A stretch of 64,000 bases of DNA from positions 1 through 64,000 of the forward strand of contig CAMKNZ010000008.1 of assembly GCA_946414315.1 (NCBI GenBank), in the 5' to 3' direction. The stretch comes from an uncultured Clostridia bacterium (GTDB lineage Bacteria > Bacillota > Clostridia > Christensenellales > Aristaeellaceae). Each line of letters opens with the position of its first letter. The first letter of the stretch is position 1. Both the position numbers and the translations under genes were made by a program. The notes beneath the pieces are model-generated. The model saw nothing but the letters and a program-made list of their open reading frames with translations. It ran no database searches and was not told where the DNA came from. This document shows positions 2,117-12,570 of the stretch, in pieces.

Positions 2117-2517
2117 CTTTGTATCCGTCTGGAAAGGCGCAATATGCGATTTCAGGCAGTTCTACAACGAATTGTGCAACCATCCGCCCCGTGAATCCTT
2201 TGAAATATAAGGGTTCATGGGACTTTTTTGTGCCAATTTTTGTGCTACTTTTATCCATTAATGCGTTCAATGGCTTCCAGTTGTTTCATGACGTGTTGAT
2301 GGCGAGTTCGGGCATAAATCCTTTCGATCATTAGAAGGTCAGCGACTTGAGCGGAACAGGCATAAACAGTTTTGAAAAGATCCCTGAAAGCGGTTTTGTT
2401 ATATCAGTTTGTCATAAAAGGGGGAAATCCCTGTCATCAGGACATGCATACGAAAAAGTAAGGCGGAAGCTAAAAACAAAATGTTATCGATTACAACAAA
2501 AATGGTGGAAAATCTGC
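2117..2517. other. Intergenic, no gene recognised
   Basis: About 400 AT-richer bases between the tRNA-like repeats and the radical SAM operon. Short open frames exist on both strands, but none has a good ribosome site or a recognisable protein. This may be further element remnant. Confidence 0.5.
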
Positions 2518-2546
2518 TTTACGTTCCGCTGATATGTGGATATAAT
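2518..2546 (+). promoter_or_regulatory. Sigma-A-type promoter of the radical SAM/peptide operon
   Basis: TTTACG and TATAAT are separated by 17 bases. Transcription would start near 2553, leaving about 29 bases to ATG 2582. That argues against the earlier GTG at 2555 as the start. Confidence 0.6.
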
Positions 2547-2581
2547 GTTATCGAGTGAAACGCATGGGAAAGGACACAAGC

Positions 2582-3727
2582 ATGAAAGAGCCCTTGAACG
2601 GTATAGAGTATCTCAATATGCTTGAAAAAGAAAACGGCGGACAGGCTGCCACCCATGCGGACCTGGCTCATTATCTGGACGAAAAAGCCAGAAAAGCCGG
2701 TGTTCCACTCGGAGGCCAGTTTGAACTGACGCCCCTGTGCAACTTCAGCTGCAGGATGTGTTATGTGCACCTGGAAAAGGAACAGCTTGGCAAAGCTTCC
2801 CTCCTGACGACTGAGCAGTGGAAAGATCTGATCTTTCAGGCGTGGAAGGCCGGCATGCTACAAGCCACGTTAACGGGCGGGGAGTGTCTTGCTTATCCTG
2901 GATTTAAAGAGATTTACCTTTACCTGCAGGAACTGGGCTGCAAAGTGGCAGTGCTGACAAACGGGTACATGCTCGATGATGAGATGGCATGCTTTTTTGA
3001 AAAGCATCAGCCTGTGAACATCCAGATTACCCTGTATGGTTGGAATGACGACGTATACGAGCGGGTTACCGGACGGAGGGCGTTCACAACCGTTGCGAAC
3101 AATATCCGCAACCTGATCAACAAAGGCGTTTCGGTTTCCCTTACTTTGACGCCGAACCGTTATCTTGGTGAGGACGCCCTGGAAACATTAAGGGTTGCAT
3201 ACGAACTGTGCGGACATGTGACGATCAACCCCAAACTGACGCTTCCCCGGGAGGAGACCGGAAGGACCGGAATAGGGGATGAAGCTGATCCGGAATTGTA
3301 TGTCAGGCTTTTCCGCCTCAAGGCGGAACTGAACGGACAGCCGGCAGGTGAACCCTTTGAGGGTGAGCTTCCTGAGCCGGGCGGTCCCTGCCGCGAATGT
3401 GCGGAACACGGCATGAAATGCGGCGGCGGACGATCATCGTTCGCAGTTGACTGGAAGGGAAACATGACATTCTGCAATTCATTGGAAGCAGTGAAGTGCA
3501 ACCCCCTTGAGGAAGGATTTCAGAACGCCTGGAAGAAGCTTAATCAGGAAGCTTTGAGATGGCCGATTTCATCAGAGTGCGAGGGCTGCGCATACAGATC
3601 TGTGTGCTTCAGCTGCGCAGCCTATGAGTATCAGTTTGCCGGACCCGGGAAACAGCCGCTGACGGTGTGCGAATGGACAAAATACCTGGTTCGCCACGGT
3701 GTCAAACGCCCCCCGGTCTGTGAATAA
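2582..3727 (+). CDS. Radical SAM/SPASM peptide-modifying enzyme
   Basis: A 381-residue radical SAM enzyme likely to modify the Cys-rich peptide encoded 27 bases downstream. Residues 53-60 (CNFSCRMC) give the CxxxCxxC [4Fe-4S]/SAM site, and TLTGGECL follows as the usual GGE SAM-binding motif. The C-terminal third is a SPASM domain: cysteines near 270, 273, 280, 298, then CEGCAYRSVCFSC (333-345) and a last one near 363, enough for two auxiliary clusters. The N-terminal 45 residues may help bind the leader peptide. ATG 2582 has an AAAGGA site. The linkage formed (thioether, C-C or other) cannot be read from the sequence. Anaerobic sulfatase maturases share the architecture, but no sulfatase is nearby. 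Confidence 0.85.
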   Translation: MKEPLNGIEYLNMLEKENGGQAATHADLAHYLDEKARKAGVPLGGQFELTPLCNFSCRMCYVHLEKEQLGKASLLTTEQWKDLIFQAWKAGMLQATLTGGECLAYPGFKEIYLYLQELGCKVAVLTNGYMLDDEMACFFEKHQPVNIQITLYGWNDDVYERVTGRRAFTTVANNIRNLINKGVSVSLTLTPNRYLGEDALETLRVAYELCGHVTINPKLTLPREETGRTGIGDEADPELYVRLFRLKAELNGQPAGEPFEGELPEPGGPCRECAEHGMKCGGGRSSFAVDWKGNMTFCNSLEAVKCNPLEEGFQNAWKKLNQEALRWPISSECEGCAYRSVCFSCAAYEYQFAGPGKQPLTVCEWTKYLVRHGVKRPPVCE

Positions 3728-3754
3728 ACAACATAACATGAAAGGAGAAACAAT

Positions 3755-3934
3755 ATGAAAAAAGAGTACGAAACTCCCGAAGCCAAGAAGATCGATTTTG
3801 ACTACAGAGAGAATGTTGTCGCTTCCGGTACGGCCAAGCAGGGCGATGACAAATGCAACACCTATACGGATCCGTGCACGGGCGAATCCAAGATGTGCTA
3901 TATGTTCTCCACTTCCCAGTGCTCCTGGGGCTGA
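3755..3934 (+). CDS. Cys-rich precursor peptide (probable RiPP)
   Basis: A 59-residue peptide with an excellent ribosome site (AAAGGAG, 8 bases before ATG). The N-terminal half is charged and leader-like (MKKEYETPEAKKIDFDYREN), followed by VVASG, which resembles leaders of clostridial peptides encoded beside radical SAM enzymes. The C-terminal core, about residues 25-59, contains four cysteines at 34, 41, 48 and 56, spaced 6, 6 and 7 residues apart, among Thr, Ser, Asp, Gly and aromatic residues. It ends QCSWG. It sits 27 bases after the radical SAM gene and just before a strong terminator, so the pair forms a closed operon. The function of the product is unknown: antimicrobial, signal or cofactor are all possible. 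Confidence 0.8.
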   Translation: MKKEYETPEAKKIDFDYRENVVASGTAKQGDDKCNTYTDPCTGESKMCYMFSTSQCSWG

Positions 3935-3951
3935 TCTTCAGCAGGAAGATG

Positions 3952-3990
3952 AAAAGGCCTGGCTGTACAGTTGTACAGCCAGGCCTTTTT
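3952..3990. terminator. Strong bidirectional terminator
   Basis: An 18-bp perfect stem (AAAAGGCCTGGCTGTACA and its complement) with a tight loop has A-runs on one side and T-runs on the other. It ends the peptide operon on the plus strand and the caspase-like gene on the minus strand. Confidence 0.9.
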
Positions 3991-3996
3991 CATATT

Positions 3997-5556
3997 TTAC
4001 TCAACGGAACCGCGCTCAAAGAGTATACAGTCATCCGGGCCGCTCATCTGAACTGCCTGTTCATAATAAGCTCCCTCCTGGAACTCGAAATTGTTAGCCT
4101 CGCAATATGCTCTCCATGCTTCGTTGACCAACTGGTTCATATTGTCAACCTGATTACGGACGCCCTGATACGCTTCCGAAAGACTCAGTTTTCCATCGCT
4201 GTTGCTGTCCCCGGCCATTTCCCCTGAGTAACTGCCAGACGGATAACCGCATCCCATCGTACGGACCAGCGAATAAGTAAAAGCGCTGCCGTGATTGAAT
4301 AACATATTGTAGTTTGAAAGATCGGTTGCCAGATATGCTTCAAGCGCCTGCTGATCCACATAACTGCTTTTGGAAGTTGTTCCGTGTTCGCAGGCCGCCA
4401 GGACAACGTACTTCCCAAGCATTTCACCTGATTTTGTATCATTCAGTGCGGTTTTGCCCCGGAAGGCATTGACAACCGCCCTGGTAAAGTTACTGCCGAC
4501 GGCGGCACCGCCTTTTGTTCCGGACGATTCATCATAAATGGATGATCCGCTGCCGCAGGAATCCAGGATCACGATCACTTTTCCGGGCGTGGCGCTGTCG
4601 ATCGCTGAGCAAAGGGCAGAAGGCAGGACATATCCGGATTGAGCGGCATTTTCATTTCCGCTTCCTTTACCGTCTGTTCCGAACAGCGAGCCCGCGGTGG
4701 CTGATTTTGAATTGTCCCCGTGTCCGCTGTAATAGAACAGACAGACGTCGGTTTCCCTGGCTGCCTGGCTGAACTTATTGCTGACTGCGGAAAGCATCCC
4801 TTCTGCGCTGAGATTGCTTTTTACAGTTACCTGCCAGTTTTGAGACAGCCCGCTGACCGCATTCTGCATGGCATTGATATCTGAATCGATACCGTTCAGC
4901 TTGGACAAATAATCATAATTCCAGTTTCCGATGATCAGCGCAAAGTACCGCGGATAAGCCTGATAGGTCCATCCGTGGTCTTCGCACCATTGGATGGCTA
5001 CGGTGTTTTCCGCACTTCCGATTCCTGTGCCGGAGAGAATATAGGGAAACGCGTCGTCGGCGACGGATTCAATCCCGTCCGGGAAAATCACAGTGTTTGC
5101 GTCCGTATCGGCAAAGAACCATCCGTGGTCTTCGCACCATTGGACGGCTACGGTGTTTTCCGCGTTTCCGATTCCTGTGCCGGTGAGGATACCGGGAAAC
5201 GCGCCGTCGGAGACAGATTCAATCCCGTCCGGGAAAACCACAGTATCCGCGTCTGTGTCGACAAAGAACCATCCGTGTCCTTTGCACCAGGCAACCGCTA
5301 TGCTGTTTTCCAGATTTCCGAATCCCGTGCCGGCCGACTGCCGGTCAAAGGCGTCATCAGCAATGTATTCAATCCCTTCCGGGAAGATCACAGCATCTGC
5401 AGGAATGCCGGCAAATGCTTCCGCTTCGATTTGCTTTAAACCGGCCGGCAATACCAGTGTGCAGTCTTCTTCCTCAGCGCTTGCAACAGCTGACGGAACA
5501 AACAATATACACAGGATCAGAGCAATGAGCAAAACATTTGTTTTCAAATGATCCAT
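3997..5556 (-). CDS. Secreted caspase-like (C14) protein with tandem repeats
   Basis: 519 residues from the ATG at 5556, preceded by GAGGTG; a GTG 12 bases earlier is less likely. An N-terminal signal peptide (hydrophobic, ending near AVASA) indicates export. Residues about 40-200 contain three 50-residue repeats (FPDGIESVSDGAFPGI...NAENTVAVQWCEDHGW) resembling BspA-type leucine-rich repeats, encoded by a 150-base tandem repeat. Residues about 205-400 are a caspase/metacaspase fold: YFALIIGNW strand, histidine in FYYSGHGD (H279) and cysteine in VILDSCGSGS (C334). The final part contains DSNSDGKLSLSEA, which looks like a calcium-binding dockerin or EF-hand-like loop. It is probably a surface or secreted cysteine peptidase; the substrate is unknown. 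Confidence 0.85.
   Translation of the reverse strand: MDHLKTNVLLIALILCILFVPSAVASAEEEDCTLVLPAGLKQIEAEAFAGIPADAVIFPEGIEYIADDAFDRQSAGTGFGNLENSIAVAWCKGHGWFFVDTDADTVVFPDGIESVSDGAFPGILTGTGIGNAENTVAVQWCEDHGWFFADTDANTVIFPDGIESVADDAFPYILSGTGIGSAENTVAIQWCEDHGWTYQAYPRYFALIIGNWNYDYLSKLNGIDSDINAMQNAVSGLSQNWQVTVKSNLSAEGMLSAVSNKFSQAARETDVCLFYYSGHGDNSKSATAGSLFGTDGKGSGNENAAQSGYVLPSALCSAIDSATPGKVIVILDSCGSGSSIYDESSGTKGGAAVGSNFTRAVVNAFRGKTALNDTKSGEMLGKYVVLAACEHGTTSKSSYVDQQALEAYLATDLSNYNMLFNHGSAFTYSLVRTMGCGYPSGSYSGEMAGDSNSDGKLSLSEAYQGVRNQVDNMNQLVNEAWRAYCEANNFEFQEGAYYEQAVQMSGPDDCILFERGSVE
4966..5410 (-). repeat. 150-bp tandem repeats inside the caspase-like gene
   Basis: The block containing ATCCGTGGTC and the following sequence recurs at 4971, 5121 and (diverged) 5271, giving a period of 150 bases or 50 codons. 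The first two units are the most alike, which suggests recent duplication. Confidence 0.8.
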
Positions 5557-5742
5557 TAAGCACCTCACAAAGTGATCCCCGTGTTTGTATTATATCGTTC
5601 TTCCCATTCTACCACATGTCGATCAAACAGTTCAATTCCTACACGGAAAGTAATCATAATGCCGCAATACGCAGTTGCGAAAAATTCATCACCTGTGTCT
5701 TGCCGCTGCCGGCATCTGCTTTTCATTCGGGCAGATTAACGG

Positions 5743-12042: not shown

Positions 12043-12570
12043 ATGAGCAAGAAACTGGAAGAATACGTCGTAACCATTCCTGATTTTCCCGAACCCGGGA
12101 TTATGTTCCGGGACATTACGTCCGTGATCCAGGATCCGGACGGCCTGAAGCTGGCGGTGGACGGCCTGGTGGACCTGCTGAAGGATACGGAATATGACCT
12201 GATCATCGGCCCGGAATCCCGCGGTTTCATATTCGGCGTGCCGGTGGCTTATCTGACAGGGAAGGGCTTTATTCCCGTCCGTAAAAAAGGCAAGCTGCCC
12301 CGGGCAACCGAGAGCCAGAAGTATGACCTGGAATACGGCCAGGCGGAGATCGAGATCCATACAGACGCCATCAAACCCGGCCAGAAGGTCGTCATCGTGG
12401 ACGACCTGATCGCTACGGGCGGCAGCGCGGAAGCAGCCGCGAAGCTGGTGGAAAAGCTGGGCGGCGAAGTTGTGAAAATGATCTTTGTGATGGAACTGGC
12501 CGGTCTGAAGGGCAGGGACAAACTGAAGAAATACGACGTCGAATCCCTGATCGTTTACGAAGGCAAATAA
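12043..12570 (+). CDS. apt: Adenine phosphoribosyltransferase
   Basis: 175 residues; converts adenine and PRPP to AMP in purine salvage. The PRPP-binding loop VVIVDDLIATGGSA is at 116-129, the substrate segment GPESRGFIFG at 56-65 and the flexible-loop KKGKLPRAT at 81-89. The length matches the family. AAAAGGAG precedes the ATG. It is the last gene of the operon, 29 bases after the hydrolase, and is followed by a strong terminator. Confidence 0.97.
   Translation: MSKKLEEYVVTIPDFPEPGIMFRDITSVIQDPDGLKLAVDGLVDLLKDTEYDLIIGPESRGFIFGVPVAYLTGKGFIPVRKKGKLPRATESQKYDLEYGQAEIEIHTDAIKPGQKVVIVDDLIATGGSAEAAAKLVEKLGGEVVKMIFVMELAGLKGRDKLKKYDVESLIVYEGK

Follow-up and report, generated by a model that had tools for sequence, protein, structure and literature searches.

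Positions 2518 to 3990 of a 64,000-nucleotide stretch from an uncultured Clostridia bacterium (contig CAMKNZ010000008.1, positions 1 to 64,000; hereafter the window) encode a radical S-adenosylmethionine (rSAM) enzyme and, just downstream, a 59-residue peptide. We conclude that this pair is probably a satellite cassette of an rSAM-bearing system for ribosomally synthesized and post-translationally modified peptides (RiPPs) that is similar to the linear polyphosphorylated peptides (LPPs) described by Popov et al. 2026 (PMC13381572). An earlier note on this DNA had proposed a modified-peptide system here and had asked whether relatives of the enzyme ever neighbour a similar peptide. They do: at 23 loci with enough flanking sequence, whose enzymes share 45% identity or more with that of the window, a peptide with the same leader was found within 1 kb on the same strand in 21/23, compared with 0/23 in control windows 2.5-3.5 kb off. 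With a conserved leader, a variable core and an adjoining modifying enzyme, the window peptide has the general marks of a RiPP precursor and, judged by this recurrence, is a real one. The elements that the note had listed, namely a promoter-like site, the enzyme, the 59-codon peptide 27 bases downstream, its ribosome site and an 18-bp terminator, are all present in the window, as follows:

2482..2495 (+), operator-like, palindrome-like TGTTATCGATTACA, upstream of the promoter, with an 8-base half copy at 2546-2553
2518..2546 (+), sigma-70-like promoter TTTACG-17-TATAAT, a consensus match only (10/12 positions)
2582..3727 (+), radical SAM/SPASM-type peptide-modifying enzyme, 381 aa (PF04055, 72 bits; 36-member alignment; tree)
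2738..2761 (+), CxxxCxxC radical SAM cluster motif, Cys 53, 57 and 60, invariant in 36/36 aligned enzymes
3419..3670 (+), SPASM-like cysteine region, C280, C298, C333, C336, C342, C345 and C363, invariant in 36/36
3741..3747 (+), ribosome-binding site AAAGGAG of the precursor
3755..3934 (+), precursor peptide, 59 aa, starting 27 bases after the enzyme stop
3755..3826 (+), conserved leader MKKEYETPEAKKIDFDYRENVVAS, with YxxP as Y5 and P8 (3767-3778) and the conserved Ser24 (3824-3826)
3827..3931 (+), hypervariable four-cysteine core GTAKQGDDKCNTYTDPCTGESKMCYMFSTSQCSWG; its boundary is placed nominally, at Y+20, for counting
3952..3989 (+), intrinsic terminator, perfect 18-bp stem (arms 3952-3969 and 3972-3989)

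We further examined how far the pairing of enzyme and leader extends. From the tblastn matches, those shorter than 250 residues were left out and near-copies were collapsed (258 matches to 165 groups), and PqqD-like open reading frames (ORFs) were removed from the peptide list by pattern. A single-sequence scan of the genome contigs returned 66 pattern-matching stretches and 0 relatives; an alignment-based scan recovered the relatives. Counting that of the window, 39 distinct enzymes were at least 45% identical to it, and 35/39 had a leader peptide within 1 kb on the same strand (34 by pattern, L242 by eye); L248 and L018 have it on the other strand, and L103 and L119 are cut by contig ends. 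At 37-45% identity the count was 16/25 (17 by pattern, minus L092, a PqqD). At 33-37% it was 6/31 and below 33% it was 19/70, both by pattern only. The tree took 95 of the 165 groups, with enzymes below 33% identity or shorter than 250 residues excluded, and placed the window enzyme in a group of 38 (SH-aLRT 100), for 37 of which a leader peptide was found no further than 1.5 kb off, counting both strands, while one is cut. Among the other nine enzymes of the 37-45% band, five (L091, L092, L093, L120 and L125; 39-44% identical) have double-glycine-type peptides, and L091, L092 and L125 form one tree group with four others.

Relatives of the enzyme were found in 38/200 genomes of a family sample (E <= 1e-20), 14/396 of an order sample (E <= 1e-40) and 5/398 of a phylum sample (E <= 1e-60), the window's genome being counted in each; the best match outside the family in the order and phylum samples was 7.5e-83. 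The precursor as query matched 25/308 family genomes at E <= 0.01. A ruminant host is named in the titles of 11 of the 17 public-contig loci at or above 45% (L103-L119). The plasmid collection gave no match and the viral contig collection just four weak ones (22-29% identity), so neither of the two points to carriage on a plasmid or phage. Precursors were also seen at L235 and L243, with no enzyme in the 11-13 kb fetched around them. YxxP peptides stand by relatives of 32-34% identity in contigs labelled as Prevotella (L133, 9052-9192) and as an actinobacterium (L140, 9164-9301), which suggests horizontal spread or a binning error. Several enzymes of 33-36% (L144 6054-6323, L146 5695-5952, L161 5819-6070 and similar loci) lie ~2 kb from a different precursor type, MKKxYxKPEIxFExFxLSTNIAGxC...CYHVP...LFNS, of which the two tested, from L146 and L161, had no NCBIfam match.

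Across 65 distinct precursors the leader follows the consensus MKKxYExPxxEKxxFDYxxxVxAS; this set includes four added by hand (L242, L235, L243 and the second of L110), and the Tyr and Pro were fixed by the search pattern. A Phe at Y+10 is found in 57/65 and a Ser at Y+18 to Y+21 in 62/65. Between the window leader and 25 others, differences fell 153/107/347 on codon positions 1/2/3, a skew expected of a frame that is both translated and conserved, and the median dN/dS was 0.20 (101 usable of 325 pairs among 26 leaders). By these codon measures the leaders are under purifying selection.

Behind the constant leader the cores are hypervariable. The 65 precursors fall into 52 core groups, and identity of the window core to the others has a median of 0.26 and a best value of 0.42, with shuffled cores giving 0.23. 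The window cysteines stand at 34, 41, 48 and 56 with 6, 6 and 7 residues between, as the earlier note had claimed. Its use of this spacing as a class mark did not hold: the spacing occurs in none of the other 64 precursors and, since the cores are hypervariable, we read it as the window peptide's own rather than as a class signature. Cysteine itself is nearly constant in the cores, with at least one in 64/65 (two in 39, one in five, none in one). Neighbouring core cysteines are 10-16 residues apart in 42/74 gaps from the 52 groups, compared to 23% in shuffles, and 0/2000 shuffles had as many; Cx3P occurs in 16/52 and CxxTP in 6/52 core groups, again with as many in 0/1000 shuffles. One core type, GNGDVGRGRGRGGGCDGVPYHRNxRTFSSGRNSGC, occurs in more than one genus and has changed mostly synonymously (dN/dS median 0.10; 22 usable of 45 pairs). 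The GNGDVGRGRGRGGGCDG core also appears behind a longer, different leader with VGG (L007 1159-1464, L016 1138-1437); core and leader seem to have recombined. A second shared element, YNN[DE]PNGQYxKC, was seen in two genera (L070, in a peptide near 12364; L238 7146-7313; L034 5464). At L249 (5631-5828) and L041 (4697-4894), precursors bearing the conserved leader lie between two enzymes and have an aromatic-rich core with no or one Cys.

The likely processing genes were found in related genomes. In G091, of the same genus, a cluster contains an rSAM gene, a pair of precursors, of which the second has a weak ribosome site, a signal peptidase, an ATP-binding cassette (ABC) protein and a fusion of an HprK-like kinase with a PqqD-type domain (HprK::PqqD), with an NTP transferase ~5 kb upstream, among sugar-modification-type genes. 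The archaeal-type signal peptidase scores 42.4 bits with TIGR02228 (E 6e-11; the cut-off, 51.85, is not reached), the ABC protein matches PF00664/PF00005, and the NTP transferase is NTP_transf_5 (PF14907). The fusion matches PF05402 above its cut-off and TIGR04352 with E 7e-6 and just 25 of the 200 bits that its cut-off demands. In the signal peptidase of L074, Ser30, His70 and Asp85 are conserved in 40/40, 44/44 and 42/42 of the homologues with a letter there. Three further enzyme-precursor pairs lie ~3, 100 and 665 kb away in G091. Three more genomes of the genus (G566, G575 and G576) have one PqqD match each, in a fusion, with a signal peptidase within ~3 kb, and a single hub was thus counted in four. 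The pair, which the earlier note had called self-contained, is probably not so: relatives have their likely processing genes gathered in the hub cluster, with pairs scattered elsewhere.

Hub genes also track the enzyme more widely. The HprK::PqqD query matched 28/31 chosen carrier genomes and 12/12 of the well-completed ones, spanning both domains in 20/31 by a count compiled by hand; the signal peptidase query matched 25/31 and 10/12. In the 200-genome family sample, HprK::PqqD was matched at E <= 1e-60 in 13/24 enzyme carriers compared to 1/176 others (p 4e-13), in a table compiled by hand with the carrier threshold (best E <= 1e-73) set at a gap in the E values. The sole non-carrier match, in G051, covers the kinase part only. 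In relatives, the link of the pair to the hub is strongly supported.

According to the main text of Popov et al., LPPs are encoded with an archaeal-type signal peptidase, a RiPP recognition element (RRE), an HprK-like kinase, an NTP transferase and an MsbA-like exporter, and have the leader YxxPxVLxHQxIxFETxxS and highly variable C-termini (PMC13381572). The RRE is reported there to bind the leader via YxxP, the kinase to phosphorylate core Ser3 (Y+18 by our reckoning), and the signal peptidase to cut in vitro only together with the RRE. All five of these gene kinds are present at the G091 hub, and neither "radical" nor "rSAM" is to be found in that main text; the window family therefore seems to combine LPP-type processing with an added rSAM/SPASM step and cysteine cores, its pairs scattered as satellites.

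Several observations weigh against this reading. No hub gene stands beside the window pair, and HprK::PqqD and the signal peptidase were not found in the window's genome (G000), which is only 60% complete, so that their absence carries no weight; the exporter and NTP transferase were searched for only in the pair's surroundings. Both queries were also unmatched in G195 (89% complete) and G565 (79%), and the signal peptidase in G119, G198 and G038 as well. Eight of the 28 HprK::PqqD matches are split or partial, and in several other genomes there are multiple matches of HprK or PqqD type, the single hub being shown only in the four genomes above. In the cores, the PapB motif Cx3[DE] is not enriched (6/52 groups against a shuffled mean of 11.2). 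The window core lacks Cx3P; gaps between its successive cysteines are 6-7 residues, short of the enriched range of 10-16, which only non-neighbouring pairs fit (C34-C48 with 13 between, C41-C56 with 14). Finally, the HQxIxFET of the LPP leader is replaced by EKxxFDYxxxV; because of this, and because no hub was found in the window's genome, we do not file the window family as LPPs.

The sequences themselves show that enzyme and leader recur together, that the cores are hypervariable and that carrier genomes contain hub genes. Beyond this, we infer that a hub of this kind serves the window pair in the following order and with the following chemistry. The PqqD-type recognition domain, which in relatives is the C-terminal part of the HprK-like kinase fusion, would bind the leader at YxxP and present the peptide, and the cassette's own rSAM/SPASM enzyme would then crosslink the Cys-bearing core at least once, most likely through Cys thioethers. 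Phosphate may be added by the kinase to the conserved Ser where leader and core meet, the archaeal-type signal peptidase would cut near VxA|S, and the ABC exporter would release the product. Pairs with divergent cores are scattered, and the hub is single in the four same-genus genomes counted. We advance only tentatively, as a possibility short of the probable, the wider proposal of a RiPP class in which one kinase::recognition-domain, signal peptidase and exporter hub serves many dispersed cassettes of rSAM enzyme and cysteine core, with products that are both crosslinked and Ser-polyphosphorylated.

For the chemistry, a thioether on cysteine has about an even chance. Its main rival, which concerns chemistry only and is compatible with the satellite reading, is that the enzyme does not act through cysteine but makes carbon-carbon or ether crosslinks or epimerises residues, and that the cysteines form disulphides after export. 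The excess of 10-16 residue gaps is what Cys-Cys pairs would be expected to give, C34-C48 and C41-C56 would suit such pairs in the window, and the precursor without Cys and the five with one are in keeping with it as well. The recurrence of Cx3P and CxxTP suggests instead that Cys belongs to a recognised site, and we consider this rival somewhat unlikely.

We also weighed whether the pair is an ordinary ranthipeptide or sactipeptide pair, whose enzyme alone would make Cys thioethers, with no phosphorylation and no hub. The enzyme has the rSAM hallmarks, with CxxxCxxC and a clear Radical_SAM match in Pfam. Of the label "SPASM-type" given by the earlier note, the invariant cysteine pattern stood, while the Pfam SPASM model reached 14.4 bits, below its 21.5 cut-off. 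That pattern, the core Cys of nearly all precursors and distant matches to AlbA, SkfB, SuiB and CteB favour an ordinary pair, as does the hub's absence from the searches of G000, G195 and G565. SkfB is the nearest solved structure by sequence (1e-23, profile search), and PDB entries 5v1q and 5wgg are, we assume, SuiB and CteB. Of the 25 NCBIfam maturase-type models listed, among which TIGR03974 (the SCIFF maturase) was not included, the enzyme reached no cut-off; it scored 61 bits against 850 for AlbA and 40 against 340 for PapB (NF047865), and was likewise far below cut-off for SkfB and StsB. The precursor matched nothing in NCBIfam, Pfam or PHROGs, and domain scans found no PqqD-type domain within the enzyme.

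The window's genome has a separate canonical SCIFF ranthipeptide and maturase (L258, 1253-1411 and 1471-2841), which passes both of its NCBIfam cut-offs (755 against 425 and 82.5 against 50) and whose maturase is 23% identical to the window enzyme; PF05402 occurs in this genome only within that maturase. The models are thus able to recognise such a pair here, and the window's is of another kind: matches above the cut-offs of both TIGR03973 (precursor) and TIGR03974 (maturase), as SCIFF systems show, were not found for it, nor were the at least 340 bits or the Cx3[DE] in the core that mark PapB systems. The low enzyme scores, whereas the SCIFF pair passes, the Cx3[DE] counts and the hub genes that track the enzyme in the family make an ordinary pair unlikely. 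The assignment to sactipeptides or ranthipeptides that the earlier note had drawn from the pairing alone is likewise not borne out by these scores, and the relatives' genes point to the LPP/lasso branch.

That the peptide is a cofactor precursor or an intracellular signal rather than a secreted product seems very improbable: no exporter lies beside the pair and the enzyme has a distant match to the mycofactocin maturase, but hypervariable cores and scattered paralogous cassettes are unfitting for a cofactor, and the G091 hub holds an ABC protein and a signal peptidase. A chance ORF, for which only the small size speaks, is practically discounted, being already refuted by the recurrence of the leader, with the codon-position signal and the consensus ribosome site also against it.

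If this is correct, the system joins two RiPP branches described separately, the rSAM-crosslinked peptides and the phosphorylated LPP/lasso branch, and shows one route of peptide diversification in ruminant-gut Clostridia, by constant leader, changing core and scattered pairs. Since the leader is constant, the peptides are easy to find; the 65 precursors would form a natural library of how far one recognition domain and related rSAM enzymes tolerate new cores. Read as two overlapping loops of 13 and 14 residues, the four window cysteines give a direct prediction for mass spectrometry.

In the cassette itself, the enzyme is read from ATG 2582 to the stop at 3727, and many relatives align from the residue of this ATG; GTG 2555 is an in-frame alternative start. 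The promoter that the earlier note had seen is a weaker call: TTTACG-17-TATAAT is a consensus match only, and the scanned region gave 7 promoter-like sites against 3.9 +/- 1.9 in shuffles. TGTTATCGATTACA, which we take from its consensus to be of LacI/CcpA type, is single-copy genome-wide at <=1 mismatch, and the first base of its half copy is also the final base of the -10 box. As a feature of the family it was rejected, being found upstream of 1/37 enzymes at or above 45% (the window's own) and 0/25 at 37-45%. The terminator folds as RNA at -34.6 kcal/mol (z -8.6 against 200 shuffles) and also sits just past the end of a convergent gene for a caspase-domain protein (3997-5568, minus strand; PF00656), which has three 150-base repeats at 4969-5418. 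A search for conserved neighbours over 35 loci gave, of the window's own flanks, only the enzyme as common to at least three; the caspase-domain gene, absent from those common clusters, was therefore dropped as a partner. Upstream, a 37-base repeat in two copies (92%; 1820-1856 and 2042-2078) holds GGTTCGAGTCC...ATCCCACCA and resembles tRNA 3' ends; ARAGORN found no tRNA in the window, and the repeats are possibly remnants of tRNA-targeted integration.

An open-access literature search found, judged by title and abstract, no other paper on this leader with an rSAM enzyme, and no paper combining at least four of radical SAM, PqqD, HPr kinase, precursor peptide and signal peptidase; the leader profile gave nothing meaningful against the PDB. 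Among known systems, the window family is like the LPPs in its YxxP leader, its highly variable C-termini and its conserved Ser near Y+18/19, and its relatives share the archaeal-type signal peptidase, PqqD-type domain, HprK-like kinase, NTP transferase and ABC exporter. It differs in pairing an rSAM/SPASM enzyme with the precursor, in cores that carry cysteines, in a kinase and recognition domain that are often fused, and in enzyme-precursor pairs scattered away from the hub. Paeninodin-like lasso peptides have a [Y/W]xxP leader, a PqqD-type RRE, an HprK-like kinase and an NTP transferase, according to the main text of PMC13381572. All four features are common to the window family, whose motif is of the Y- rather than the W-type, and neither a macrolactam cyclase nor a B2 protease was found in ten hub-locus proteins (nine from G091, one from G576) or six window proteins. 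The PqqD domain's sole solved-structure match is TfuB1 (E 0.005), presumably a lasso RRE. With the ranthipeptides (SCIFF/CteB, PapB) the window pair shares an rSAM/SPASM enzyme beside a short Cys-containing precursor; no PqqD-type domain was found in the enzyme, the peptide does not have six Cys in 45 residues, and Cx3[DE] is not enriched. It resembles the sactipeptides (SkfB, AlbA) in that SkfB is the closest solved structure, and differs in scoring far below the AlbA and SkfB cut-offs and in having no exporter or protease beside the pair. Prochlorosins combine one leader with many unrelated cores and share one lanthipeptide enzyme. The window family, too, has one leader and many unrelated cores; in contrast to the prochlorosins, most of its precursors, or small groups of them, adjoin an enzyme of their own.

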